DNA of 27,829 nucleotides from a virus: positions 1-27,829 of IMG/VR virus record IMGVR_UViG_3300027759_000351. The stretch is one strand, 5' to 3'. The notes beneath the pieces are model-generated. The model was not told the origin of the DNA. It worked only from the letters and a program-made list of their open reading frames with translations, and searched no databases. Below, piece by piece: positions 1 through 25,501 of this stretch; the stretch's first letter is position 1, and each line of letters begins with the position of its first letter. Position numbers and translations under genes: made by a program.

Positions 1-1623
1 CCAGTAGACCGTATAGATTTCTCTAATGATTCTGCAGCAGCACCATCAAGAGGTCCATTAAGTTCAGCAAGATATGATTTAGCAGCAACAGGAAACTCTA
101 ATTATGGTTGGTTTAGTGGTGGTAAAGTAGCAGCAGTAATAGTATCAAGAATAGACCGTATAGATTTCTCTAATGATTCTGCAACAGCATCACCAAGAGG
201 TTCATTAAGTTCCGCAAGACAGGGATTAACAGCAACAGGAAACTCTAACTATGGATGGTTTGGTGGTGGTGCTCCAGGACCAATATCAACAGTAGACCGT
301 ATAGATTTCTCTAATGATTACGTGCAGGCATCAGTAAGAGGTCCATTAAGTTCGGTAAGAAATAATTTAGCAGCAACAGGAAACTCTAACTATGGTTGGT
401 TTGGTGGTGGTGTTATTCCAGGACCAACGACAACAGCAAGAGTAGACCGTATAGATTTCTCTAATGATTCTTCAACAGCATCAATTAGAGGTCCATTAAG
501 TACTCCAGCAGGAAGATCTTTTTTATCAGCAACAGGAAACTCTAACTATGGTTGGTTTGGTGGTGGTTCTACTCCAGCAGCAGTAGCAGTATCAACAGTA
601 GACCGTATAGATTTCTCAAATGACTCTACAACAGCATCAATTAGAGGTCCATTAAGTGTTGCAAAACAAGCATCGGGTGGTGCAGTATCAGGGCAAGCAA
701 AAGGACCAGCAATTAAACTGCAAAAAGCAGGGAATTATGGTTGGTTTGGTGGTGGAAGAACTGCAGCACCAGCATACGTATCAACAGTAGACCGCATAGA
801 CTTCTCTAATGATTCTGCAACAGCATCAGTTAGAGGTTCATTGAGTGCAGCAAGGGGGTATTTAGAAGCAACAGGAAATACAAATTTTGGTTGGTTTGGT
901 GGTGGTATTGGGGGGGGACCCGTAAATTTTTCAAGAGTAGACCGCATAGATTATGCAAATGATTCTGCGTCAGTAACAATTAGAGGACCATTAACTCAAG
1001 CAAGAAATACTCTTGCCGCAACTGGAAATAGTAATTATGGATGGTATGGTGGGGGTGCAACTCCAGCAGCAGTAGCAACTATAGACCGCATAGATTTTTC
1101 TAATGACGCAACAACAGCATCATTGAGAGGTTCATTAAATGCCTCAAGATACTCACTGGCAGCATCGGCAGCAGCAAATGCCAACTATGGATGGTTTGGT
1201 GGTGGTAGACTACCTGCATACACTGCAGCAGTAAGTCGCGTTGATTTCACTAATGATAGTATTTTGGCAATAACAAGAGGATCATTATCAGCAGCAAGGG
1301 GATATTTAGCAGCAGCAGGAAACTCAAACTTTGGTTGGTTTGGTGGTGGAATTAGTACGGGACCCGTAAATTATTCAACTGTGGATCGCATAAATTATAA
1401 TAACGATTCTGTCACAGCATTATTAAGGGGTCCATTAACACAGCAGAGAAACTCTTTATCTGCAACAGCAAGCAATGACTATGGATGGTTCAGTGCCGGA
1501 GGAACTCCTGCACCAGTAGTGACAGTGGACCGTATAAATTTCGCAAATGATTCTGTATCAGCATCAGTAAGAGGTTCAGTATCTCTTGCAAGAAGTGGAC
1601 CAGCATCAGCATCTAATAAATAA
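1..1623 (+). CDS. Kelch-like repeat protein A, probable virion adhesin/tail fibre (5' partial)
   Basis: The frame is open from base 1 and is already inside a repeat, so the true start lies outside the window; an ATG at 322 is only an internal Met. The 540 visible residues hold the tail of one unit followed by ten units of about 45 residues with the pattern NYGWFGGG, a variable stretch, TVDRIDFSND, then RGPLSSARY. The GG pair, aromatic residues and spacing fit a kelch beta-propeller blade. One unit boundary near bases 660-735 carries an insert ending in LQKAGN in place of TGNSN. Counting back from the C terminus, that boundary is in the same place as in the two complete paralogues (3082-5034 and 6785-9001), so about two units plus an N-terminal region are missing here. 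Role as receptor-binding fibre is inference from repeat architecture and neighbours. Confidence 0.85.
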   Translation, partial: PVDRIDFSNDSAAAPSRGPLSSARYDLAATGNSNYGWFSGGKVAAVIVSRIDRIDFSNDSATASPRGSLSSARQGLTATGNSNYGWFGGGAPGPISTVDRIDFSNDYVQASVRGPLSSVRNNLAATGNSNYGWFGGGVIPGPTTTARVDRIDFSNDSSTASIRGPLSTPAGRSFLSATGNSNYGWFGGGSTPAAVAVSTVDRIDFSNDSTTASIRGPLSVAKQASGGAVSGQAKGPAIKLQKAGNYGWFGGGRTAAPAYVSTVDRIDFSNDSATASVRGSLSAARGYLEATGNTNFGWFGGGIGGGPVNFSRVDRIDYANDSASVTIRGPLTQARNTLAATGNSNYGWYGGGATPAAVATIDRIDFSNDATTASLRGSLNASRYSLAASAAANANYGWFGGGRLPAYTAAVSRVDFTNDSILAITRGSLSAARGYLAAAGNSNFGWFGGGISTGPVNYSTVDRINYNNDSVTALLRGPLTQQRNSLSATASNDYGWFSAGGTPAPVVTVDRINFANDSVSASVRGSVSLARSGPASASNK

Positions 1624-1642
1624 AGCAACTACATTATTACTG

Positions 1643-2254
1643 ATGAAGCAGAATATTATTATTGTTGATAATTTCTATGAGAATCCATATGAAGTTCGTC
1701 AATATGCACTAAATCTTGAATACCCACAACCACAAGACGGTTATACTTATCCAGGTAGAAACTCAAAAGGAACTTTTTACAATCAAGAGATTCACGATAA
1801 GTTTGAAAACCTAATTGGAAGACATTTAGTTCCTGCTGATTGTGGTAATCACGGAGATTTTAGATTATCATTAGAAGTAGATACATTCCAACAAGATATT
1901 CATATTGACCCAATCTGGGAATGGGGTTGTGTTCTTTATATGAATCTTCCTCACCAGTGTATTGATGAGGCAGGAACATCTTTCTGGAAACATAAGAAAC
2001 TGGGATGGGAAAAATGCCCTGAAAGAGAAGAGGCATCTTGGTTTGGTTATACTTCTTACGATGAAATCCGTGATAGTATCATCTATGGTGATGGACTTGA
2101 CCGTTCCAAGTGGGAGAGATACTGTCTTGCGAATATGAGGTATAATAGAGCAGTCATCTTTGACCCAAAACTCTGGCATTCGCACGGAGCAAACTTTGGA
2201 GATAGTTTAGAAAATGGTAGATTAGTTCAATTGTTCTTCTTTAATAATGCATAA
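1643..2254 (+). CDS. DUF6445-like protein with 2OG-Fe(II) oxygenase-type residues
   Basis: A 203-residue protein opening MKQNIIIVDNFYENPYEVR, a start typical of DUF6445-like proteins. I chose the ATG at 1643 because an upstream in-frame ATG at 1586 lies inside the preceding gene and would add non-family residues. An HID motif (H87, D89), a distal HSHG (H179/H181) and R193 are arranged like the HxD...H...R set of double-stranded beta-helix 2OG-Fe(II) dioxygenases, so it may hydroxylate a protein or small molecule. It sits between the first adhesin gene and the sulfotransferase gene, which it overlaps by 8 bases. An AATAAATA sequence at its upstream edge resembles a weak late promoter. Substrate unknown; family call from memory of the N-terminal pattern. 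Confidence 0.75.
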   Translation: MKQNIIIVDNFYENPYEVRQYALNLEYPQPQDGYTYPGRNSKGTFYNQEIHDKFENLIGRHLVPADCGNHGDFRLSLEVDTFQQDIHIDPIWEWGCVLYMNLPHQCIDEAGTSFWKHKKLGWEKCPEREEASWFGYTSYDEIRDSIIYGDGLDRSKWERYCLANMRYNRAVIFDPKLWHSHGANFGDSLENGRLVQLFFFNNA

Positions 2255-3077
2255 GACTTATTTTTTTGAAAGTGGATTACCTCGTTCTGGTTCTACATTA
2301 CTTTCTGCAATTTTAAATCAAAATCCAGACATTCACTGTGGTGCAATCTCTCCTGTGCTGGAGATTATGTACTATACAGAGCAATACTTTGAGGGGTCAG
2401 AGCAAGCACTTGCATATCCAAAACCAGTACAGCATCATAAAATTATTTCAAGTGTGATTGATAATTATTATAGTGATATTGATAAACCAATTGTAGTAGA
2501 TAAATGCCGTGCGTGGCCCAATAATGTTGACCGACTACAAGAATACATCACAAAGACACCAAAGATTCTGTGCCCCGTAAGAGATGTGGTGGAGATTCTT
2601 GCATCTTTTATTCAAATGATTCATCGCAATTCCAATCAGGTTTCTTTTGTGGATAAGGCACTGAAAGATAAGGGATACACACCCACAGACGATAATCGTT
2701 GTGATTATCTAATGTGCCCCGAAGGTATTGTAGACCAGTCTATGTATGCCTTTGGAGAGGGGTTCAGGAAGGGTTGTGAGAGGTATATGCATATGATTGA
2801 GTATAATGACTTGGTGAACCGTCCAGAAGACACTATGCATAAGGTTTATAAGTTTTTAGAGATTCCCGAATACAAACACGACTTCGGTAATGTAAGTCAT
2901 AAATACCGTGAGAGAGATAATGAGATTTACGGATTGAGTGATATGCACGAAGTTCGTAAGCAGGTGAAAAGAACTTCCAAAAGACCTGAAGAAGTTTTGA
3001 GTGATTATGTATTGAATAAGTATTCTGGTATGGAATTTTGGAGAAAGGCAAAACAACCCATCAGTTTGTTTATCTAA
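2247..3077 (+). CDS. Sulfotransferase family protein
   Basis: A 276-residue protein beginning MHKTYFFESGLPRSGSTLL. The LPRSGSTLL loop (residues 11-19) is the 5'-phosphosulfate-binding loop of PAPS-dependent sulfotransferases, and CPVRDVVEILASF (about 109-121) matches the second motif, with Arg and Ser contacting the 3'-phosphate. The expected reaction is transfer of sulfate from PAPS to a hydroxyl or amine acceptor. The start overlaps the preceding stop (ATGCATAA), which suggests translational coupling. It lies between two giant adhesin genes and upstream of a glycosyltransferase, so a glycan or fibre acceptor is plausible, but that is inference. Length is normal for the family; no signal peptide or membrane segment is seen. 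Confidence 0.85.
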   Translation: MHKTYFFESGLPRSGSTLLSAILNQNPDIHCGAISPVLEIMYYTEQYFEGSEQALAYPKPVQHHKIISSVIDNYYSDIDKPIVVDKCRAWPNNVDRLQEYITKTPKILCPVRDVVEILASFIQMIHRNSNQVSFVDKALKDKGYTPTDDNRCDYLMCPEGIVDQSMYAFGEGFRKGCERYMHMIEYNDLVNRPEDTMHKVYKFLEIPEYKHDFGNVSHKYRERDNEIYGLSDMHEVRKQVKRTSKRPEEVLSDYVLNKYSGMEFWRKAKQPISLFI

Positions 3078-3081
3078 GTAA

Positions 3082-5034
3082 ATGACAATCAATAATAACA
3101 ATATATTTGGAGCATTTACACTTGGAGAAGTTCGTAGTGGACGACTGACTGGTGAGTGGTTGAATAAAGAATCCGTTGCGAACTATGGTTGGTTTGGTGG
3201 TGGTTATGCTCCAGCAGCAGTTCGTTCAACAGTAGACCGTATAGATTTTTCTAATGATTCTTCTACTGCATCTGTTAGAGGTTCATTAAGTTCAGCAAGA
3301 ACTAGTCTGTTTTCGACAGGAAACTCTAACTATGGTTGGTTTGGTGGTGGTCGTCTTCCAGCACAAGCATCAACAGTAGACCGCATAGATTTCTCTAATG
3401 ATTCTTCAACAGCATCAGTTCGTGGTCCATTAAATTCATCAAAAAATAATTTAGCAGCAACAGCAAACTCTAACTATGGTTGGTTTGGTGGTGGTAGTAA
3501 TGTTGTTCTTCCACTTACAGTATCATCAACAGTAGACCGTATAGATTTCTCTAATGATTTCTCAACAGCATCAGTTAGAGGTCTATTAAGTTTAGCAAGA
3601 TGTGCTTTATCAGCAACAGGAAACTCTAATTATGGTTGGTTTGGTGGTGGTATTTCTACAACACCAGCAACAGTTTCGATAGTAGACCGTATAGATTTCT
3701 CTAATGATTTTTCAACAGCATCACCAAGAGGTCCATTAAGTTTAGCAAGATATAATCCAGCAGCAACAGGAAACTCTAATTATGGTTGGTTTGGTGGTGG
3801 TAGTACTGCAACACCATCCCAACTATCAACAGTAGACCGTATAGATTTATCTAATGATTCTTCAACCGCATCAGTAAGAAGTCCATTAAGTTCAGGAAGA
3901 TATTCTTTAGCAGCAACAGGAAACTCTAATTATGGTTGGTTTGGTGGTGGCACTACTTCGCCACCATTGGTATCATTCTCAACAGTAGACCGTATAGATT
4001 TCTCAAATGATTCTGTATCAGTATCTGTTAGAGGTCCATTAAGTTCGGCAAGATATTTCTTAGCAGCAACCTCAGGAGTTCTCAATATTCGCAGACAAAA
4101 AGCAGGGAATTATGGTTGGTTTGGTGGTGGTACTGCTTCACCATTAATTTATTCGAGAGTAGATCGTATAGATTTTTCTAATGATTCTGTAACTTTATCA
4201 ATAAGAGGTACATTAAATGCCCCAGCAGGAAGATATTCTTTAGCAGCAACAGGAAACTCTAACTATGGTTGGTTTGGTGGTGGAAGATTGCCAACAACAT
4301 CAACAGTAGACCGTATAGATTTCTCTAATGATTCTTCCACAGCATCACCAAGAGGTCCATTAAGTTCAGCAAGATATAATTTGGCAGCAACAGCAAACTC
4401 TAATTATGGTTGGTTTGGTGGAGGTTATGTATCCCCACCAACTTCTCCAAGATGTATAACACTAGTAGACCGCATAGATTTCTCAAATGATTCTGTGTCA
4501 ACATCACCAAGAGGTCTATTAAGTGTTGCTGCGGGAAGATCTAACGTGGGGGCAACAGGAAACTCTAATTATGGTTGGTTTGGTGGTGGCGCTAATCCAA
4601 CAAGTAATGAAAATACCTCAATATCAACAGTAGACCGTATAGATTTTTCAAATGATTCTGCAACGGCGTCCCAAAGAACCAATTTATCAGATGTGAGAAG
4701 TTTTGTAGCAGCAACAGGAAACTCTAACTATGGTTGGTTTGGTGGGGGTGCTGTGAACAACTCATCAAAATCTACAACCACAATAGTAGACCGTATAGAT
4801 TTTTCGAATGATTCTATTCCAGTATTAGTTAGAAGTCCATTAACTATAGCAAGGAATTATGGGACAGCAACAGGAAACTCTAACTATGGTTGGTGGGCAG
4901 GGACTCCCACTATTCCTAATAATGCAATAGTAGAGCGCATAAATTTTGCAAATGATTTGGTATCTACAACAACAAGAGGTCCATTGAGTGCTGGAAGGTA
5001 TTCTTTAGCAGCAACCTCCAACACTAACAAATAA
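3082..5034 (+). CDS. Kelch-like repeat protein B, probable virion adhesin/tail fibre
   Basis: A complete 650-residue paralogue of the neighbouring repeat proteins. After a short 30-residue N terminus (MTINNNNIFGAFTLGEVRSG...) come twelve kelch-like units, each opening at NYGWFGGG and closing at RGPLSSARYxLAATGNS. Between units 6 and 7 the usual GNSN is replaced by a longer linker ending in RRQKAGN, splitting the array 6+6; this is compatible with two six-bladed beta-propellers in tandem. The last unit is degenerate (NYGWWAGTP) and the protein ends SNTNK, like a closing blade. Only the stretch directly after GWFGGG varies strongly between units (RLPAQ, SNVVLPLTV, ISTTPATV and so on), as expected of exposed binding loops on a constant scaffold. 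Virion location and receptor role are inferred. Confidence 0.88.
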   Translation: MTINNNNIFGAFTLGEVRSGRLTGEWLNKESVANYGWFGGGYAPAAVRSTVDRIDFSNDSSTASVRGSLSSARTSLFSTGNSNYGWFGGGRLPAQASTVDRIDFSNDSSTASVRGPLNSSKNNLAATANSNYGWFGGGSNVVLPLTVSSTVDRIDFSNDFSTASVRGLLSLARCALSATGNSNYGWFGGGISTTPATVSIVDRIDFSNDFSTASPRGPLSLARYNPAATGNSNYGWFGGGSTATPSQLSTVDRIDLSNDSSTASVRSPLSSGRYSLAATGNSNYGWFGGGTTSPPLVSFSTVDRIDFSNDSVSVSVRGPLSSARYFLAATSGVLNIRRQKAGNYGWFGGGTASPLIYSRVDRIDFSNDSVTLSIRGTLNAPAGRYSLAATGNSNYGWFGGGRLPTTSTVDRIDFSNDSSTASPRGPLSSARYNLAATANSNYGWFGGGYVSPPTSPRCITLVDRIDFSNDSVSTSPRGLLSVAAGRSNVGATGNSNYGWFGGGANPTSNENTSISTVDRIDFSNDSATASQRTNLSDVRSFVAATGNSNYGWFGGGAVNNSSKSTTTIVDRIDFSNDSIPVLVRSPLTIARNYGTATGNSNYGWWAGTPTIPNNAIVERINFANDLVSTTTRGPLSAGRYSLAATSNTNK

Positions 5035-5039
5035 ACATT

Positions 5040-6773
5040 ATGAAATCAGGAGCAAGTGAAAGTTCTTATTTTTTTCTTGAAGAATATTATAAGTTTCCAG
5101 AAAACATTATAGTTTCTCATTTACCACAAGAACTTCAACAATCAAATAAACCAGTCAAAGTATTATGGTCGCAACATTCTTACGACCAACCAGTATATCT
5201 TAACTTTGATTTTTCAATCTGTGATTTAATTGTCTCTCCATCTAACTGGTGTAGAGAACAGTTCATTAAGTATCATCATATTCCCGAAAATAAAATCGTC
5301 ACAATTCCAACAGGAGTATCAAAGCAATTCACATATTCATCAAGAAAATCAAAGACATTCATCTATACTTCCATACCTTATAAAGGTCTTGAAGTTCTTG
5401 CAAAAATCATTCCTCATATTCCAGAGGCAACATTTAAGATTTTTTCTGCGATGAATCTTTATGATATTGAAGAAGACCCATATACCGAACTTTATGAGTA
5501 TCTCAAATCACTTCCAAATGTAATCTACTCACCAGCAGTAGACCAAGCAGAACTGATAGAGCACTTACAAGATGCTGCATTCTTTATACATCCTAATATC
5601 TGGGAAGAAACATTCTGTGTTTCTCTTGCAGAAGCAATGTCTTGTGGATGCTTTCCAATTCTTACAGATATTGGAGCACTTCCAGAAGTTTCTAATGAGA
5701 TTGCGAATATTGTTCCGATGGAAGGTACAAGAACTTCCACTGGATATAAAGTTTCTGATAACTTCCTAAATAACTTTATAGATGCCTGTAAATCTGCATT
5801 ATATTTTTTTGATACTGATAGGCAGTACTACGACCAAATTTCACAATCTGTTTCACATTATGCTACTGAAACTTATGATTGGAAAAAAATTGCAAACGTT
5901 TGGAAACAAACATTAGAACCATTTAGTAAACAAACTATGACTGAAAATTGTAACCAACTGCAAATTATTTCCCCAGAGGAAGCAGTAAATAACGAAGAAT
6001 ATTTAAAACAAGCATTTCAAGAAGTGCTTCGTTGGGAAGATGCAGACAAAGAACTCGCACAAGGAAGAACCAATTTCCAGATTGAAAAGTTCTTTCTGTT
6101 AGAGCAATACACAGTTCCTGCAGCATTCCAGGCAGCAATTAAGAATCGTCGTATTCTTGCCGAAGGTTATATGCAGAAACTGATTGAGATGAAGGAGAAA
6201 GTTCGTGAGTTTGAGTATCGTTGGAAAGATAAGAATACTGATGAACCCGTAGAGTGGCACACTTCCGGACCGAATGGTGGTTCAACAAAACTTTACTGGC
6301 ACGATTTGGATTCAATTTCAACTCAAAACTATTTGAAGTCTTGTGAGTTGGAGATTCGTGACCGTATTCAGCAAATGAACTTCTTTGATAAGATGATTAA
6401 TAAACTGATTGAACTGAATGGTGGTAAGACAGTCACCAAAGAACAGTTTGAGAATGAGGACCATATCTATTGGGAACGTCGTTTTGCAGAGCAATCTCTG
6501 GATGAAATGGTAAGTTCTAAGACTGGTATTAGTATCGGTAATCTTCACTCTATGAGAAGAGGAACTGCACCCACACTAATCAGTGAGGATACAAACCGAA
6601 TCAAGAATGGTTATGGTGCTCTTGCTGATGCAATTAATGACCCCGATAAGTTCTTGAATACACTGCAAGAGAAAGTTCTTCGTGGTATTGAAGAAGTGAC
6701 GAATACTGATTTAGGTTTGCTTGCACCTGGAGCAGAACAACATCAACAACTTTTAGAATCCAGAAACTCATAA
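5040..6773 (+). CDS. Glycosyltransferase (GT4-like) fused to a C-terminal domain of unknown function
   Basis: A 577-residue protein in two parts. Residues about 40-290 resemble the C-terminal half of GT-B fold, GT4-type glycosyltransferases: a PSNW segment, TIPTGV, then EETFCVSLAEAMSCGCFP with the E190-x7-E198 nucleotide-sugar motif, followed by GALPEV. The N-terminal acceptor domain is short compared with ordinary GT4 enzymes. Residues 300-577, starting at an in-frame Met (base 5937), are unrelated to glycosyltransferases, mostly helical and charged, and end in GLLAPGAEQHQQLLESRNS; I do not recognise this domain. It may tether the enzyme to virion proteins or be a once separate gene now fused. 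Six bases separate it from adhesin gene B, and an AAGGAG ribosome site for the next gene overlaps its stop. Sugar donor and acceptor cannot be read from sequence. Confidence 0.8.
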   Translation: MKSGASESSYFFLEEYYKFPENIIVSHLPQELQQSNKPVKVLWSQHSYDQPVYLNFDFSICDLIVSPSNWCREQFIKYHHIPENKIVTIPTGVSKQFTYSSRKSKTFIYTSIPYKGLEVLAKIIPHIPEATFKIFSAMNLYDIEEDPYTELYEYLKSLPNVIYSPAVDQAELIEHLQDAAFFIHPNIWEETFCVSLAEAMSCGCFPILTDIGALPEVSNEIANIVPMEGTRTSTGYKVSDNFLNNFIDACKSALYFFDTDRQYYDQISQSVSHYATETYDWKKIANVWKQTLEPFSKQTMTENCNQLQIISPEEAVNNEEYLKQAFQEVLRWEDADKELAQGRTNFQIEKFFLLEQYTVPAAFQAAIKNRRILAEGYMQKLIEMKEKVREFEYRWKDKNTDEPVEWHTSGPNGGSTKLYWHDLDSISTQNYLKSCELEIRDRIQQMNFFDKMINKLIELNGGKTVTKEQFENEDHIYWERRFAEQSLDEMVSSKTGISIGNLHSMRRGTAPTLISEDTNRIKNGYGALADAINDPDKFLNTLQEKVLRGIEEVTNTDLGLLAPGAEQHQQLLESRNS

Positions 6774-6784
6774 GGAGAAAGTAG

Positions 6785-9001
6785 ATGCCAGCAGGAGACG
6801 TATTTGGTCTTGATGGAATTTTTCTAAACAAATCAAATCCCATTACGGTTTCTGCTGTAGACATTAATTCTACTGCTGCTGGTGCTGGTATTACTGTTGT
6901 GAGTGGAGTTTTAAATGCTGCTGCTGGTATTGCGACTCTTACACTTTCAACTGCTGCTGGTCTTTCTACGACACCTTTTTATGTGGGTGCAAAGATTGCA
7001 GTTTCTGGTCTTTCTGTTTCTGGTGTAGCACATACTGGATATAATGGAAACTTTGTAGTCACAGGATTTGCAGGAACTACAACAGTTTCCTATGCGACTA
7101 CTGGTTATGTTGGTGGTGTGACTGCTGGTATTACCACAACTGGTAGAGTAATATTAGTGACTGATACGCAAGTCACAAATACTACTTGGAGTAGTGCTCA
7201 AACTCACGGTTGGTTAGGTGGTGGTAGAGCAGGTTCTCCGGTAGCAACAGTATCAACAGTAGAACGTATAGATTTCTCAAATGATACTGCAACTGCAAAT
7301 ATTAGAGGTTCATTGAGTTCGGCAAGATATAGAATGGGTGCAACAGGAAACTCTAACTATGGTTGGTTTGCTGGTGGTGGTCCGGCTAGTCCGTCAACAG
7401 TAGATCGTATAGATTTCTCTAATGATTCTTCAACAGCATCACCAAGAGGTCCATTAAGTTTAGGAAGACAACGTTTAGCAGCAACAGGAAACTCAAACTT
7501 TGGTTGGTTTGGTGGTGGATTTGCTCCAGCAACAGTTTCGATAGTAAATCGTATAGATTTCTCTAATGATTCTGGAACAGCATCACCAAGAGGTCCATTA
7601 AGTGCAATAAGAGAAAATTTATCAGCAACAGGAAACTCTAATTATGGTTGGTTCGGTGGAGGATCTCCAGGACCATTATCAACAGTAGACCGTATAGATT
7701 TCTCGAATGATGCTGCAACCGCATCAGTTCGTGGTCCATTAAGTTTAGCAAGAATTGCTTTATCAGCAACAGCAAACTCTAATTATGGTTGGTTTGGTGG
7801 TGGTGCAATACCAGGTCCTATATTTTATTCTATAATAAATCGAATTGATTTCTCTAATGATTCTGCAACAGCATCTGTAAGAGGTCCATTAAGTGCTGCA
7901 AAAGCATATCTAGCAGCAACAGGAAACTCTAATTATGGTTGGTTCGGTGGAGGATCTCCAGGACCATTATCAACAGTAGACCGCATAGATTTCTCTAATG
8001 ATTCTTCTACGGCATCAGTAAGAGGTCCATTAAGTGCAGGAAGAGGATACTTGGGAGCAACATCAGGACAGGCAAGGTCTTCAAGTATTCGTCTACAAAA
8101 AGCAGGGAATTTTGGTTGGTTTGGTGGAGGAGGTATTCCACAAGTAGCAACAGTAGATCGTATAGATTTCTCAAATGATTCGAGAACAGCATTAGTTAGA
8201 GGTTCGTTATCTCAAGCAAGATGGTTTTTAGCAGCAACAGGAAACTCTAATTATGGTTGGTTTGGTGGTGGTAATACTCCAACATCAGTGGCAACAGTAG
8301 ACCGTGTAGATTTTTCTAATGATTCTCCTGCTGGAGCATCACCAAGAGGTCCATTAAGTTCTGCAAGATATGGTTTAGCAGCAACAGGAAACTCTAACTA
8401 TGGTTGGTTTGGTGGTGGAAGAGGTGGTACTCCAATAGCAACTGTAGCAACAGTAGACCGTATCAATTTCGCAAATGATGCAATAACAACATCACCAAGA
8501 GGTCCTTTAAGTTCAGCAAGATATAATTTAGCAGCAACAGGAAACTCTAACTATGGTTGGTTTGGTGGTGGATATATTATATCTCCTCTCCCTGCAGTTA
8601 GAGCAACAGTAGACCGTATAGATTTCTCAAATGATTCGGTATCAGCATCACCAAGAAGTCCATTAAGTTCAGCAAGATATCGTTTAGGAGCAACAGGAAA
8701 TTCCAACTATGGTTGGTTTGGTGGTGGTAGCACTGGAGCACTATCAGCAACAGTAGACCGTATAGATTTCTCTAATGACTCTGTATCAGCAATTGCTAGA
8801 GGTTCATTATCTCAAGCAAAACAATCTTTAGCAGCAACAGGAAACTCTAATTATGGTTGGTTTGGTGGTGGTTCTATTCCAGCAACAACAGCAACAGTAG
8901 ACCGCGTAGATTTCTCTAATGACTCTGTAGCAACATCACCAAGAGGAGCATTGAGTTCAGCAAGAGGTGGTCCAGGAGCAACATCAAACACCCCAACATA
9001 A
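6785..9001 (+). CDS. Kelch-like repeat protein C with N-terminal virion-type domain
   Basis: A 738-residue adhesin paralogue with a strong ribosome site (AAGGAG, 7 bases before the ATG). Residues 1 to about 135 form a distinct Gly/Ala/Thr/Val-rich beta domain (MPAGDVFGLDGIFLNKSNP...) not found in protein B, perhaps the virion attachment domain. Twelve kelch-like units follow, from HGWLGGG to a C-terminal SNTPT. As in B, an insert (SGQARSSSIRLQKAGN) lies exactly between units 6 and 7, giving 6+6. Units 4 and 6 share the same variable loop (SPGPLSTV) with almost identical DNA, evidence of recent copying between units. Late-gene position and fibre role are inferred; structure prediction would decide whether it forms two propellers. 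Confidence 0.88.
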   Translation: MPAGDVFGLDGIFLNKSNPITVSAVDINSTAAGAGITVVSGVLNAAAGIATLTLSTAAGLSTTPFYVGAKIAVSGLSVSGVAHTGYNGNFVVTGFAGTTTVSYATTGYVGGVTAGITTTGRVILVTDTQVTNTTWSSAQTHGWLGGGRAGSPVATVSTVERIDFSNDTATANIRGSLSSARYRMGATGNSNYGWFAGGGPASPSTVDRIDFSNDSSTASPRGPLSLGRQRLAATGNSNFGWFGGGFAPATVSIVNRIDFSNDSGTASPRGPLSAIRENLSATGNSNYGWFGGGSPGPLSTVDRIDFSNDAATASVRGPLSLARIALSATANSNYGWFGGGAIPGPIFYSIINRIDFSNDSATASVRGPLSAAKAYLAATGNSNYGWFGGGSPGPLSTVDRIDFSNDSSTASVRGPLSAGRGYLGATSGQARSSSIRLQKAGNFGWFGGGGIPQVATVDRIDFSNDSRTALVRGSLSQARWFLAATGNSNYGWFGGGNTPTSVATVDRVDFSNDSPAGASPRGPLSSARYGLAATGNSNYGWFGGGRGGTPIATVATVDRINFANDAITTSPRGPLSSARYNLAATGNSNYGWFGGGYIISPLPAVRATVDRIDFSNDSVSASPRSPLSSARYRLGATGNSNYGWFGGGSTGALSATVDRIDFSNDSVSAIARGSLSQAKQSLAATGNSNYGWFGGGSIPATTATVDRVDFSNDSVATSPRGALSSARGGPGATSNTPT

Positions 9002-9004
9002 ATA
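8997..9004 (+). promoter_or_regulatory. Possible T4-type late promoter (CATAAATA)
   Basis: CATAAATA, one mismatch from TATAAATA, lies 21 bases before the ATG of the 2OG oxygenase gene. The spacing equals that of better matches elsewhere in the window. Weak on its own because it overlaps the preceding stop codon. Confidence 0.35.
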
Positions 9005-9025
9005 CTTCAAACTACATTATTCTTT

Positions 9026-9676
9026 ATGAATTTATTATCAAAAGTTTTGATTGCACCAAAAGTCATTAGTCAAGAAGGTATTGATGCACTGGTAAATCAT
9101 ATGAAAACTTCCAAGACAGAAGACCTTTCAGTATTTGACCCAGACAAATCCAATCAGACACGAGGAACTGAATGGATTACTGATAAGAGAACAAGAGATA
9201 CTCAAATTGCACCAATTGAACCTGTATTTCCACAGGTCAACGAACTGATACATCATATTGTAAAGCAAGTCATCAATCCTTTTTATCAGTTTGAAGTTGA
9301 TAGTAGTGAAGTTCCACAACTTCTTTGTTATGATGTAGGAGGACACTACCAACCTCATATTGATGGTGAAGGTATATGGACTGCACCAGACCAAACACAA
9401 CTGTGGAGAAAGACAGTAGACCGTGATTTGTCTATGGTCTTATATCTGAATGATGGTTTTGAGGGTGGAGATTTTGTATTTCCAGACCTTCATATTCGTG
9501 TTCGTCCTGAACCTGGACTTCTGGTATGCTTTCCTTCCAATCGGTATTATCGTCACGGTGTTGAACCAGTCACCAAAGGAAACCGATATTCTATGGTGAC
9601 TTGGATGACAGTCAAAGGATTTGAGAGTATGGAAACACAATCTAATAATCTCAAATCTAAATATGGTGTATGCTAA
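9026..9676 (+). CDS. 2OG-Fe(II) oxygenase, prolyl 4-hydroxylase type
   Basis: A 216-residue protein with the full catalytic set of the P4H-alpha family: YQPHID (H111, D113) and RHGVEPVTKGNRYSMVTW (H177 for iron, R187 for 2-oxoglutarate), plus the conserved DLSMVLYLND and GGDFVFPD strands between them. Known family chemistry is hydroxylation of a prolyl or other residue using O2 and 2-oxoglutarate; such proteins are common in T4-like cyanophages beside tail genes. It follows adhesin C by 24 bases. The variable loops of the adhesins are rich in Pro, Gly, Ala, Ser and Thr (TPAAVA, IPGPTTT), which makes them candidate substrates, but that is speculation. Length and start (MNLLSKVLIAPKVIS) fit the family. 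Confidence 0.88.
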   Translation: MNLLSKVLIAPKVISQEGIDALVNHMKTSKTEDLSVFDPDKSNQTRGTEWITDKRTRDTQIAPIEPVFPQVNELIHHIVKQVINPFYQFEVDSSEVPQLLCYDVGGHYQPHIDGEGIWTAPDQTQLWRKTVDRDLSMVLYLNDGFEGGDFVFPDLHIRVRPEPGLLVCFPSNRYYRHGVEPVTKGNRYSMVTWMTVKGFESMETQSNNLKSKYGVC

Positions 9677-9682
9677 GAAACG

Positions 9683-10240
9683 ATGATTACTTATACTTGG
9701 GGAATTTATAAATTGGACTGTGCTCCATCAGAAAATGGATTAATTGATGTCGTGAAGATTGTTCATTGGAGACTTGCAGGAGTAGATGAGAATGGAGTAT
9801 CGGCATCAATCGATAATTCTTATCCTCTTCCTTCACAAATTCCAGAAGCATTTACTGACTATTCAACTCTTACTGAAGAAACTGTGATAGGATGGTTAGA
9901 AAGTAACCTTGATGTTGGATATTTACAAACAGTTATTGCAAATGAGATTGCAAGTAAGTATAATCCTCCTATTACACCACTACCTCTTCCTTGGGTGGAG
10001 GTAGGAGAACCTGTTTCTGTTGAAGAATCTGCAGTAGTAACTGAAGAAGAACCAGTAACTGAAGAACCAGTACTAGAAGTTATTGAAGAACCAGTAGTAA
10101 CTGAAGAACCCACACCCACAGAACCAACATTAGAAGAAATGATTGCTGATGGTTATAATCCTGATGCACGAGATGGTGATGGAGATGGAATGGTTCAGGA
10201 CGCAACACAGTGGGAAAGACCTATTGTCACTGAAGTATAA
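9683..10240 (+). CDS. Probable virion protein with DUF7936-like N-terminal domain and EF-hand-like loop
   Basis: A 185-residue protein. Residues 1 to about 110 (MITYTWGIYKLDCAP..., VHWRLAGVDENG, LTEETVIGWLES) resemble a small domain common in T4-like cyanophage tail-region proteins. Residues 115-145 are a low-complexity acidic run built from variations on VTEEPV. The C terminus has DARDGDGDGMVQDATQWERP, where alternating Asp/Gly resembles a calcium-binding EF-hand loop followed by a short conserved tail seen in other phage virion proteins. It is the last gene of the adhesin block and ends two bases before the convergent bilin reductase gene, with no obvious terminator between them. Calcium binding is inferred from the DxDxDG spacing; function unknown. 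Confidence 0.75.
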   Translation: MITYTWGIYKLDCAPSENGLIDVVKIVHWRLAGVDENGVSASIDNSYPLPSQIPEAFTDYSTLTEETVIGWLESNLDVGYLQTVIANEIASKYNPPITPLPLPWVEVGEPVSVEESAVVTEEEPVTEEPVLEVIEEPVVTEEPTPTEPTLEEMIADGYNPDARDGDGDGMVQDATQWERPIVTEV

Positions 10241-20047: not shown

Positions 20048-21196
20048 ATGAAAACCTTTCAAGAGTTTATTACCGAAGCAAAGAAGTGCTGGCCTGGTTA
20101 TAAGAAAAAAGGCACCAAAAAACTATTTGGAAAGACGTATAATAATTGTGTAAAAGAAGGTAAAGTAGAGTGGGATAATCCAAAGAGACCTTTATCGTCT
20201 GGATTAACTCCAAGAGAAAAGAATAGAGCAAAAAGGATTTCTACTGGTGTGGAAAATCCAGATAGAATTCCAAGTGAAAGAGATTTGGAAAGATATGGGA
20301 AGTTAAAGATTGCTCACGATGATGAGAAAGGAAAGAAGGTTTCAAGAGGTAAGAGGCACGAGTTTAAAATAATAACTAATTGGGAAGGAAATCAATTAGA
20401 AACTGAAGGACAACAAGCAAGAGCATTTAAAGACCATAAAAATATTAAAAATCTAAAAGAACCAAAGGAAAGTTTTGAATATGAACTAGAAGAAAGTTCA
20501 ACTGGTGAAAGAAGTAGAGGACGAGCTACTTTAGGTCGTGCTGGAAATAAGATGGACCGAGGAGAAAGGTCTGTTGCTGCAATTGCAAAGAAAGCAGGAT
20601 TAAAAGGAACTGGTAAGTATTCCACTAAAGATTTGAGAACGAGAGCAAGAGATTATACAACTTATGATAGTGATGATGATATGGATGATATTGGAAGCAC
20701 AAAACAAGACCATTTCATTCGCACATATTCATCAGCAAGAAAGGCAGCAAAGGCTGAAAGACTTATTACTAAAATAAAACCAGCAGGAAGAAATGCATCT
20801 GGAATGACTAAACTTAAAACTTCACCTTCAAGTGAAAGTGTGAGAAAAGTAAAAGATTTGAAGAAGCAAATGACTAAAACAGGTGCTTCTAAAACTGGAA
20901 GAGTTCATACTGTAGATATTATGCACCGAGATGGTGATGTTGGTAAAGGTGATAGAAACCAACAGATGGAAAGAGGTAGAAACTTTATTCAAGCAATCAA
21001 AGATACTCCAAAACACTTGGAGAAAGCAGGAGCAAAGAAAGGTGATACTGTAATTGGAAAACCAACAGCAGTTATGCCTGGTGAAGATAAGAAAACTGGT
21101 GAAGCAAAACGAGCAAAGTTATATGGAAAGATTTTCGGTAAGAGAAGTAGTAAAAAATCCAATAAAACAGGATTGATGGTTGGGAAGGTAGATTAA
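20048..21196 (+). CDS. Putative capsid-targeted internal protein
   Basis: 382 residues. The N terminus MKTFQEFITEA is nearly the same as the MKTYQEFIAEA leader of T4 internal proteins IPII/IPIII, which is cut by prohead protease gp21 after Ile/Leu-x-Glu; the predicted cut here is ITE before A. A second segment CWPGYKKKGTKKLFGKTYNNCVKE follows, a motif I associate with cyanophage proteins. A further LEE-S site occurs near residue 150. The body is very basic (many Lys/Arg, Gly, Ser), suiting a DNA-associated protein carried in the head and perhaps injected. It overlaps the next gene through TAATGA-type coupling. No enzyme motif is recognised. Confidence 0.72.
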   Translation: MKTFQEFITEAKKCWPGYKKKGTKKLFGKTYNNCVKEGKVEWDNPKRPLSSGLTPREKNRAKRISTGVENPDRIPSERDLERYGKLKIAHDDEKGKKVSRGKRHEFKIITNWEGNQLETEGQQARAFKDHKNIKNLKEPKESFEYELEESSTGERSRGRATLGRAGNKMDRGERSVAAIAKKAGLKGTGKYSTKDLRTRARDYTTYDSDDDMDDIGSTKQDHFIRTYSSARKAAKAERLITKIKPAGRNASGMTKLKTSPSSESVRKVKDLKKQMTKTGASKTGRVHTVDIMHRDGDVGKGDRNQQMERGRNFIQAIKDTPKHLEKAGAKKGDTVIGKPTAVMPGEDKKTGEAKRAKLYGKIFGKRSSKKSNKTGLMVGKVD

Positions 21197-21495
21197 TGAA
21201 AACATTTAGAGAGTTTTTATACGAGGCATCTGCAACACAGAGATTGAAAATTGCAACAGCAAAGTTAATTGCAAAAAATCCAAAGAATTCTGTATATAAA
21301 ACTCTATTGAATAGAATTAAGGAAAGGCAAGCACCACTATATCCAGAGTATCCAGGAAGAGAATCTGCCAGAAAAGATAAGACCCTAATTCCATCTGGAA
21401 GAACATCAAGTTTTCCAGAACTTGAAGGAATATCTACAAGAACTAAAAATCCCAAGAAGTTAAGAAAACAAAGAGCATTAGGTGAGTTATCATAA
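21196..21495 (+). CDS. Putative capsid-targeted small basic protein
   Basis: 99 residues. MKTFREFLYEASATQR carries the same leader type, with predicted cleavage LYE before A at residue 10. The remainder is a basic helix (KIATAKLIAKNPKNSVYKTLLNRI) and a C-terminal TKNPKKLRKQRALGEL segment that recurs in the protein at 24686-25501. The start overlaps the previous stop by one base. Likely packaged with its neighbours; function unknown. Confidence 0.72.
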   Translation: MKTFREFLYEASATQRLKIATAKLIAKNPKNSVYKTLLNRIKERQAPLYPEYPGRESARKDKTLIPSGRTSSFPELEGISTRTKNPKKLRKQRALGELS

Positions 21496-21527: not shown

Positions 21528-22100
21528 ATGAACTCACAAGAACTTAACAATCTTCACGAAGCTTATTTGGATGTCTACACAGATATTGATGAAGAGAGAG
21601 CAGAAGGTGTAAGACCTTATAAAGCAGGACCATCTCAAGCAGAAGTTAGAGCAGACGCAAAAAAATCAGAAAAAGCAAAAAAAGATAAAGATAAAGATAA
21701 AGCAGGTTATGGTCCTGAAGACAAGTTTAAGGATTGGAAACTTACTTCAACTCCAAGCACTGTCAATAAGAAAGGAGAAACGATTTCACAAAGAATGGAT
21801 AAAGAGGCACCATACAAGACAAGACCATTCTCTCCATTATTCACAAAACAGGGAAGTCGTACTGCTTCTGCTGTAACTAGAGCAACTGAAGGACCAGGTG
21901 AACCACAATCAGTTACAATGCCTAGAATGAAGTCAAAACCATCAAGAGAAATCGTTAGAAAAAATCTAAACAATTCTTATGATCTCTATGATGTAATCCT
22001 TTCATATCTTCTTGATGAAGGTTATGCTGATACTTTTGAAAGTGCAGAAGCAATTATGGTGAATATGAGTGAAGAGTGGAGAGAAAGCATCATCGGTTAA
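21528..22100 (+). CDS. Putative capsid-targeted protein with C-terminal DLYD/WRES module
   Basis: 190 residues starting MNSQELNNLHEAYLDVY, where LHE before A fits the gp21 site at position 12. The middle is Lys-rich and low complexity (KKDKDKDKAGYG). The last 40 residues, YDLYDVILSYLLDEGYADTF...MVNMSEEWRESI, form a helical module shared with the proteins at 22604 and 24686. An exact late promoter stands upstream and a strong terminator follows. This combination of late expression, leader and terminal module suggests a virion protein; the function of the module is not known to me. Confidence 0.72.
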   Translation: MNSQELNNLHEAYLDVYTDIDEERAEGVRPYKAGPSQAEVRADAKKSEKAKKDKDKDKAGYGPEDKFKDWKLTSTPSTVNKKGETISQRMDKEAPYKTRPFSPLFTKQGSRTASAVTRATEGPGEPQSVTMPRMKSKPSREIVRKNLNNSYDLYDVILSYLLDEGYADTFESAEAIMVNMSEEWRESIIG

Positions 22101-22603: not shown

Positions 22604-23197
22604 ATGAACTCACAAGAACTTCGTAGTCTTCAAGAAGCATATTTGGAAGTTGTTATGGGTGAAGAAAAGAGAACATTTCCATTTGAAAAAGTAAAAAATC
22701 AAATTAATAAAAAAGAACAACAAAGAAATCAAATTAGCAAGGATGAAAAAGAAGGTTTAATATCTTCAAGAAGAGCATTAGTAAAAAAAGCGGAAATGAG
22801 AAGACATTATGGACATATGCAGCATCATTTTGATAAAGCAAAAAAAGAAAGACAAGATATTAATGTTGAGAGAAGGTCTCCAACATTTTATGGAAAAGAT
22901 AAACAAAAAATGACTAAAACTCAAAGAGAACAAGTAGACCTCTACGACATCATTCTCTCACACCTTCTTGATGAAGGTTATGCTGAAACTCAAGAACAAG
23001 CAGAAGTCATTATGGTGAATATGAGTGAAGAGTGGAGAGAAAGTATTATGGAAGGAAATGTATCAAAAAAACAACAAAAAAAAGACGCAAAAACTAGAGA
23101 AAAATGGTATGGTGAAAAATCAATAGAACGTGGTACTGATAGGTTTTCTCAACTTCAAAAAAAAGCAATTGAATCTGGAAAGACTAAACTTTTTTGA
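22604..23197 (+). CDS. Putative capsid-targeted protein with C-terminal DLYD/WRES module
   Basis: 197 residues starting MNSQELRSLQEAYLEVVMGEEK, with LQE before A at position 11-12 as predicted prohead-protease site; the leader is nearly the same as in the 21528 protein. The centre is Lys/Gln/Glu-rich (KVKNQINKKEQQRNQISKDEKEG). A DLYDIILSHLLDEGYAETQ...MVNMSEEWRESIME module (about 112-151) is nearly identical at DNA level to the one in the 24686 gene, and a basic tail follows. A CTAAATA box upstream is only a weak late-promoter match. Confidence 0.7.
   Translation: MNSQELRSLQEAYLEVVMGEEKRTFPFEKVKNQINKKEQQRNQISKDEKEGLISSRRALVKKAEMRRHYGHMQHHFDKAKKERQDINVERRSPTFYGKDKQKMTKTQREQVDLYDIILSHLLDEGYAETQEQAEVIMVNMSEEWRESIMEGNVSKKQQKKDAKTREKWYGEKSIERGTDRFSQLQKKAIESGKTKLF
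22937..23058 (+). repeat. Direct repeat, copy 1 (DLYD/WRES coding module)
   Basis: About 120 bases encoding the DLYDIILSHLLDEGYA...WRESI module are nearly identical to 25180-25301. A more distant version lies at 21980-22095. The DNA-level identity suggests recent duplication or recombination. Confidence 0.8.
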
Positions 23198-24685: not shown

Positions 24686-25501
24686 ATGAATTATAGGGAC
24701 TTACAAAACATTTCAAATCTTTCTCAAGAAATTTTAATTGAGGGAGCAAATGAAGACCACAACGTGCTGAACCGTTGGCCTTATACTTCTCCTTATCTTC
24801 AAGAATCAACTGAACTTGATGAAGGTGCTTCGGAAGACGTTGCTGCTAGATCCGAAAAACTTGCAAACCAAAGAAAGGGACAAACCCCCCAAAGAAAAGC
24901 AATGTATAAGGGACTTGCACTTAACGCAAGAATTCGTGCTTCTGGAGGAAATCCTGGAGATAAACCACAGGGACATCCTTTAAGAAAAGCATCTAATAGA
25001 CCTATTCGCCCCCACGATAGTGAGTATGGTAGATCTGGTTTAACTCAATCTGAAAGAGATGAAAGAAGAGATATAGATGCCGCAACTCATGGTGAGTATA
25101 GTGATGGTCCTGGAACAAAAACCAAAAATCCCAAAAAACTCCGTAAGCAAAAAGCGATGGGAGAGATTGGTGAAAGTTATGACCTTTACGACATCATTCT
25201 CTCACATCTTCTTGATGAAGGATATGCTGAAACACAAGAACAAGCAGAAGTCATTATGGTGAATATGAGTGAAGATTGGAGGGAAAGTATTGTGGAAGGA
25301 ATGAAACCACTTCCTGTGGGTAAAATGATTAAGCAGGCTGCAAGGCATAGCAACCCAGAACAAGTTACAAAAATGGCCAAGGTTGCAGATACTCATAATC
25401 CTAACAAGTCCCAAAGAAAAGAGGACGATAATAGAAGAGAAGGTGGTCGTAAAAGAGAAGCAGGAAGACCTAGGAGAAATGAACTTCAAGATAATTGGTA
25501 A
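24686..25501 (+). CDS. Putative capsid-targeted protein with DLYD/WRES module
   Basis: 271 residues. The N terminus MNYRDLQNISNLSQEILIEGANE has LIE before G (about residue 20), and further sites YLQE-S and LDE-G follow within 50 residues, so it may be cut several times by the prohead protease. A basic segment TKNPKKLRKQKAMGEI (about 146-160) recurs in the 21196 protein, and the DLYDIILSHLLDEGYA...WRESI module (about 166-205) in the 22604 protein; a basic tail follows. It seems a mosaic of modules used by its neighbours. Preceded by an exact late promoter. Function unknown. Confidence 0.7.
   Translation: MNYRDLQNISNLSQEILIEGANEDHNVLNRWPYTSPYLQESTELDEGASEDVAARSEKLANQRKGQTPQRKAMYKGLALNARIRASGGNPGDKPQGHPLRKASNRPIRPHDSEYGRSGLTQSERDERRDIDAATHGEYSDGPGTKTKNPKKLRKQKAMGEIGESYDLYDIILSHLLDEGYAETQEQAEVIMVNMSEDWRESIVEGMKPLPVGKMIKQAARHSNPEQVTKMAKVADTHNPNKSQRKEDDNRREGGRKREAGRPRRNELQDNW
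25180..25301 (+). repeat. Direct repeat, copy 2 (DLYD/WRES coding module)
   Basis: Second copy of the module described at 22937-23058, differing by scattered, mainly synonymous changes. Both are followed within about 300-500 bases by a KTSC-like gene with a shared promoter, so the duplicated unit may include both. Confidence 0.8.

Follow-up and report, generated by a model that had tools for sequence, protein, structure and literature searches.

Among the described phage proteins closest to those treated here, the kelch proteins CBB_550, CBB_552 and CBB_554 are encoded by the jumbo phage vB_PcaM_CBB, and CBB_552 was detected in the virion by mass spectrometry (PMC5259590); a kelch-repeat gene of cyanophage P-HM2 is mentioned as strain-specific, without unit count or structure (PMC3037559). 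The members of the protein family PHROG 19111 and those in the record of Synechococcus phage S-SKS1 are annotated as hypothetical, without function or fold, and our searches of the open-access literature turned up no account of kelch arrays in tandem in a phage. Here we analyzed a sequence of 27,829 nucleotides (nt) from a marine T4-like phage (the whole of IMG/VR record IMGVR_UViG_3300027759_000351, positions 1 to 27,829; hereafter the window), in which three genes on the plus strand encode tandem-repeat array proteins A, B and C. The best overall explanation, with fold and function taken together, is that these arrays are multi-propeller virion adhesins, to which we assign a probability of roughly 0.8. 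It is very nearly certain, as judged from structure prediction, that A, B and C are strings of closed six-bladed kelch-type beta-propellers, two in each protein and one to six in relatives; we lean towards the virion-adhesin function with appreciably less assurance.

Repeat units of the array proteins

When split at the relaxed motif [NHD][YF]GW, proteins B (650 amino acids (aa); 3082–5034) and C (738 aa; 6785–9001) each comprise 12 units of 47–55 aa, the linker unit excepted. An earlier sequence-only reading of the window had counted exactly twelve units in both by the string NYGWFGGG; the number holds, the literal string does not, with 11 occurrences in B and 8 in C, and reaching twelve units takes variants such as HGWLGGG, NYGWFAGG, NFGWFGGG and NYGWWAGT. 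Each of the three proteins contains one insert ending in QKAGN, which in B and C lies at the junction of units 6 and 7 and nowhere else, exactly where that reading had placed it. Protein A (1–1623), whose gene is cut at its 5′ end, consists of ten complete units and one partial unit, with four complete units and the partial one before its insert (SGQAKGPAIKLQKAG; 688–732) and, also as proposed, six units after it. If A has 12 units, the window therefore starts inside unit 2, and A would run from partial unit 2 through units 3–6 and the linker to units 7–12, which would form its second propeller (733–1611) by analogy with the model of B. This start point, likewise suggested earlier, stands because 12 units were counted in each of the nine complete A-type orthologues from related loci. 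All three proteins match PHROG 19111 over most of the profile, with E-values of 2.8e-98 (A), 1.2e-119 (B) and 3.5e-144 (C).

Array lengths among relatives are multiples of six

We ran a unit profile on all array open reading frames (ORFs) from the 49 loci of the first scan, from further scans, and from stretches of the same genomes and named phage records, and clustering at 90% identity to remove redundancy left 103 complete ORFs. We found that 94 of these have exact multiples of six units, distributed as 6 (12 clusters), 12 (41), 18 (12), 24 (12), 30 (10) and 36 (7). Unit counts thus range over one to six propellers, always by whole sixes, a periodicity well outside what chance would give. 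The counts come without a simple p-value, the relatives being non-independent, and assembly collapse could hide in some of the short contigs counted. The spacing of unit starts shows the same period. Within a six it is 37–59 aa (mean 48.6, n = 1350), with none of 1,350 spacings at 61 aa or more, and at sixth junctions it is 51–102 aa (mean 70.6, n = 176), with 155 of 176 at least 61 aa.

Each of the nine exceptions was read individually. Five are gene pieces of phage S-SKS1, either with a broken frame (9+3 and 3+9 units) or truncated close to the end of the record; one (locus L075) loses its frame inside unit 17, in the last propeller; one (L080) has 24 units and a fragment beyond a frame break, the other side of which is the six-unit ORF L080:7333 that was counted as regular. 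The remaining two, both from AG-345-L05, have diverged so far that the profile missed some of their units; by eye they read 6+6+6 and 6+lectin+6. In the latter (L069:24894-27641) a concanavalin-type lectin domain (Laminin_G_3, E 2.3e-20) sits between two sixes, exactly at the propeller boundary.

Several features of individual relatives were observed beside these counts. The two frame-split 12-unit array genes of S-SKS1 (L068:1657-3416 and 4343-6192) reflect either sequencing errors or true inactivation, and this phage has a third array at the record end. In a six-unit array protein at L053:5224-7014, the N-terminal half carries immunoglobulin-like domains of the TIG and He_PIG types. No cellular relatives appeared in a scan of genome contigs that used two short patterns only and that distant ones could escape.

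Predicted propeller fold and closure at the sixth unit

The sequence-only reading had predicted two six-bladed kelch propellers in tandem with a fixed linker, to be examined by structure prediction of B. Full-length B modeled with AlphaFold2 and 35 aligned sequences reached a mean predicted local distance difference test score (pLDDT) of 74.9 and a predicted template modeling score (pTM) of 0.51. In this model each unit has about four strands and forms one four-stranded blade, and pLDDT falls under 50 in three places only: the N-terminus, residues 334-341 of the linker and the last three residues. Each half is predicted as a closed six-bladed ring and no 12-unit solenoid was obtained. Propeller 1 (residues 34-332; 3181–4077) aligned with the designed six-fold kelch protein SAKe6BE (7onc) at Z 41.5, with a root-mean-square deviation of 1.7 over 280 residues, and with the KEAP1 kelch domain (1zgk) at Z 40.1 (VIA-align). 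For the second half (residues 343-647; 4108–5022), a separate AlphaFold2 model built with 77 propeller relatives reached pLDDT 91.7 and pTM 0.91 and matched 7onc at Z 39.6 over 278 residues; Foldseek concurs, with TMt 0.91 to 8pjr. In a viral structure library the nearest entries were an S-SKS1 fragment and other phage kelch-like proteins. When sequence profiles were compared with the sequences of the PDB, one built from diverse propellers weakly matched the KLHL12 kelch domain (E 7e-4, about four blades) and a less diverse one recovered no kelch chain. Across 1,716 units, the glycine pair that ends kelch strand B is present as GGG at unit positions 6-8 (conserved in 64%, 89% and 91%), and position 22 is Tyr or Phe in 97%.

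The two-propeller part of the earlier prediction is thus backed by the models of both B halves, by the weak KLHL12 match and by the six-unit quantisation in relatives. The word "fixed" holds for the linker only in position. In B the linker (SGVLNIRRQKAG; residues 331-342, 4072–4107) includes the low-confidence residues 334-341, the spacing at sixth junctions among relatives varies from 51 to 102 aa, and QKAGN is restricted to the subgroup of the window; it is constant neither in structure nor in sequence. In wider relatives the sixth junctions often carry a cap such as AANGLPQ, which also terminates the whole protein. By homology to B and the unit split, C would form propeller 1 from units 1–6 (7205–8068) and propeller 2 from units 7–12 (8108–8992), with the linker SGQARSSSIRLQKAG between them (C residues 427-441; 8063–8107). 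Ahead of these lies a 140-aa N-terminal region (6785–7204) that is conserved in C-type proteins, is not present in A or B, and has no family match in Pfam or PHROG.

The model of B offers a reason for the position of the linker. In it, the first strand of the array belongs to the YGWFGGG segment, corresponding to kelch strand B, and the last to the LAAT segment, corresponding to strand A. In KEAP1-type closure, a ring is shut by its final strand joining blade 1. Because the array starts with strand B and ends with strand A, the last strand of unit 6 would complete blade 1 in the same manner, and the ranges aligned to 7onc and 1zgk begin and finish in keeping with this closure. Inside a ring, a short GNSN turn connects strands A and B; the longer linker falls exactly at the 6/7 junction because there the two strands belong to different propellers.

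Genomic context and proposed function

The array genes alternate with a set of enzyme genes. In the window these, all on the plus strand, are a DUF6445 protein (1643–2254) and a sulfotransferase (2247–3077) between A and B, a GT4-type glycosyltransferase with an extra C-terminal domain (5040–6773) between B and C, and a 2-oxoglutarate (2OG)-Fe(II) oxygenase (9026–9676) downstream of C. Clades whose arrays have from 6 to 36 units repeat the order array-DUF6445-sulfotransferase-array-glycosyltransferase-array-2OG oxygenase, either as such or in a variant form, and the alternation is found in the window, in loci L069, L073, L077 and L105, and in others. Among arrays with enough flanking sequence, a gene of this set starts within 150 nt downstream in 70 of 91 and ends within 150 nt upstream in 62 of 88. 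The Gp23 major capsid protein was found in 7 of 9 relatives tested, marking them as T4-like, and a photosystem reaction-centre gene in 4 of the 9, which is why we regard several relatives as cyanophages. In a 213-kb relative (G001), large ORFs upstream of the array cluster and on the same strand match virion structural and baseplate families.

These structural neighbours suggest that the arrays are present in the virion. The array proteins also share an N-terminal motif (consensus RGVFSLGDVYERQLSGVW; IFGAFTLGEVRSGRLTGEW in B) that occurred in no other ORF of the loci examined. In B it lies in a segment of low pLDDT (3082–3180) proposed for attachment, and such a segment would anchor the array protein to the tail or fibre region of the virion, from which the propellers would project outward. 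Among the 1,716 units, variation concentrates at positions 9-14, which hold most insertions and deletions, and at positions 37-42. These two stretches are the B-C and D-A loops, which share one face of a kelch propeller; conservation is seen in the A-B and C-D turns. This variable face, together with the lectin insertion in one relative, points to possible binding of host-surface ligands, to which several propellers would contribute avidity. The neighbouring glycosyltransferase, sulfotransferase and 2OG oxygenase probably decorate the array proteins or the surface that these meet. We infer virion location, host binding and the targets of the modification enzymes, and the earlier label of adhesin is kept here in that sense.

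Other observations on the neighbouring genes are as follows. In clades with longer arrays, DUF6445 is present in a second copy that has diverged, and there is another glycosyltransferase-like gene (L077:11802-12455). The C-terminal domain fused to the glycosyltransferase of the window is about 280 aa long and has no Pfam match; in locus L020 (genes at 7843-9363 and 9391-10227) it is a separate gene, and the first gene has in its place what by eye resembles a methyltransferase domain. Further along the window, three ORFs (21528-22100, 22604-23197 and 24686-25501) have a similar start (MNSQEL or MNYRDL) and share the paralogous segment YDxYDxILSxLLDEGYAxTxExAExIMVNMSEEWRESI. Two others (20048-21196 and 21196-21495) both begin with MKTFxEFxxEA, which we take to recall the capsid-targeting leader of T4 internal head proteins, and the ORF at 23819-24658 matches Dam-type adenine methyltransferases (TIGR00571, E 1.2e-26, under the cut-off of that model).

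Weighing of alternative explanations

Several points weigh against the arrays being kelch-type virion adhesins. The Trp of the kelch consensus, expected about six residues after position 22, is not conserved in the 1,716 units, and many kelch repeats depart from the consensus. Pfam kelch models stay below their cut-offs (Kelch_3 E 0.087 for A; at best 23.4 bits versus 50 in a relative), for which reason the family is filed under the kelch-type fold and not under the Pfam kelch family. The fold is a predicted one, and with a pTM of just 0.51 for full-length B the mutual arrangement of the two propellers in the model is of low confidence. Virion placement is put forward from genomic context, and the neighbouring enzymes could modify host molecules and not the arrays. 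Separately, matches of the arrays to the Pfam families FAM183, DUF5816 and Circovir2_Orf4 were rejected as artefacts of composition and repeats, since no stretch passes the limit alone and the structure matches kelch.

The strongest competitor accepts the propellers and doubts the adhesin: the arrays may be intracellular scaffolds or secreted proteins that act as substrates or assembly platforms for the neighbouring enzymes, for example in remodeling of the host surface. Kelch domains are common protein-binding scaffolds, and the arrays are associated more tightly with enzyme genes (70 of 91 with one close downstream) than with structural genes. On the other side stand the same-strand virion and baseplate genes upstream of the arrays in the 213-kb relative and the lectin domain inserted into one array. 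Moreover, mass spectrometry identified a kelch protein in CBB virions (PMC5259590), which shows that such proteins can form part of the virion in a T4-related phage. We consider the scaffold role possible but rather unlikely.

It is very improbable that the array is an open solenoid or a fibrous rod with the 6/7 insert as nothing more than a hinge. Tandem near-identical repeats often are solenoids, and the whole-protein pTM is modest. However, the confidence of the single-propeller model and its alignment to closed rings at Z of about 39-41 argue otherwise, and a solenoid offers no reason for quantisation in sixes.

The six-unit rule might also be an inheritance from one ancestor that is uninformative on folding, and many of the relatives are indeed orthologous. 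Against this, counts shift between one and six propellers by whole sixes only. The 36-unit protein of L101 (six propellers) and the 30-unit protein of L104 (five) are 90% identical in their first propellers, 82% between P5 and P4 and 89% between P6 and P5; turnover is in the middle and they differ by one whole middle propeller, so that the ends are kept at 82-90% identity. Blades also swap positions with the unit count unchanged. A nearest-unit test of such exchange was judged weak, the units being short and alike, and long exact DNA tracts were used in its place: tracts of 70-121 nt recur at different unit numbers within one gene (13 cases) or in different genes of the same contig (6 cases), consistent with blade exchange by recombination. 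We therefore give mere inheritance very little weight.

In the reading that we favour, blade exchange and gain or loss of whole propellers would vary the binding faces while the six-blade rule stays intact. Tentatively, and with a good deal more doubt than attaches to the fold or the adhesin role, marine T4-like phages may carry a modular surface system made of multiple propellers, in which two to three array proteins, each with one to six kelch propellers, are joined by dedicated decorating hydroxylases, glycosyltransferases and a sulfotransferase, and recombining blades and propellers rewrite the binding faces under the six-blade constraint.

Least probable of the alternatives is that the 12 units of B or C build one large 12-bladed propeller: propellers with anything from 4 to 12 blades are known in nature (PMC3797127), but relatives with 6, 18, 24, 30 and 36 units and a linker at every sixth junction contradict it, and each half of B was modeled as a closed ring that matches KEAP1-type domains end to end.

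Comparison with known systems

The fold itself was already known. As far as the open literature shows, two things are new: unit numbers strictly quantised in sixes across one to six propellers in tandem, and a locus of marine T4-like phages in which the link to enzyme genes is conserved. The gene sequence itself thus displays the folding unit, with repeats quantised in sixes and linkers that mark the ring boundaries, and the family provides a clean system for repeat recombination that is constrained by ring closure. Should the arrays prove to be virion adhesins, marine T4-like phages would have in them a large receptor-binding system that is still unannotated and has modification enzymes linked to it, open to test on the isolate S-SKS1 and its Synechococcus host.

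The PHROG 19111 and S-SKS1 proteins belong to the same family as the arrays of the window. S-SKS1 has 12-unit B-like and C-like genes, both frame-split, and their neighbours are a sulfotransferase and a glycosyltransferase, as in the window. The kelch proteins of CBB resemble the arrays as kelch-type propellers in a T4-related myophage, placed side by side by description, and the accessible part of the CBB report describes no tandem multi-propeller array or six-unit rule (PMC5259590). The P-HM2 gene, also likened by description, is a kelch-repeat gene in a T4-like cyanophage. The kelch domains of KEAP1 and KLHL proteins (1zgk, 2vpj) and the SAKe designs (7onc, 8pjr) share with the arrays a closed ring of six blades, each four-stranded and about 50 aa long, with matching start and end strands and predicted Z of 38-41 over about 280 residues. 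The arrays differ from them as phage proteins with one to six tandem rings, 14-20% identity, no BTB domain, no canonical kelch Trp and scores under the Pfam kelch cut-offs. Near-identical blades are common to the arrays and to SAKe, and the family can be seen as a natural counterpart of these designed self-assembling kelch proteins.

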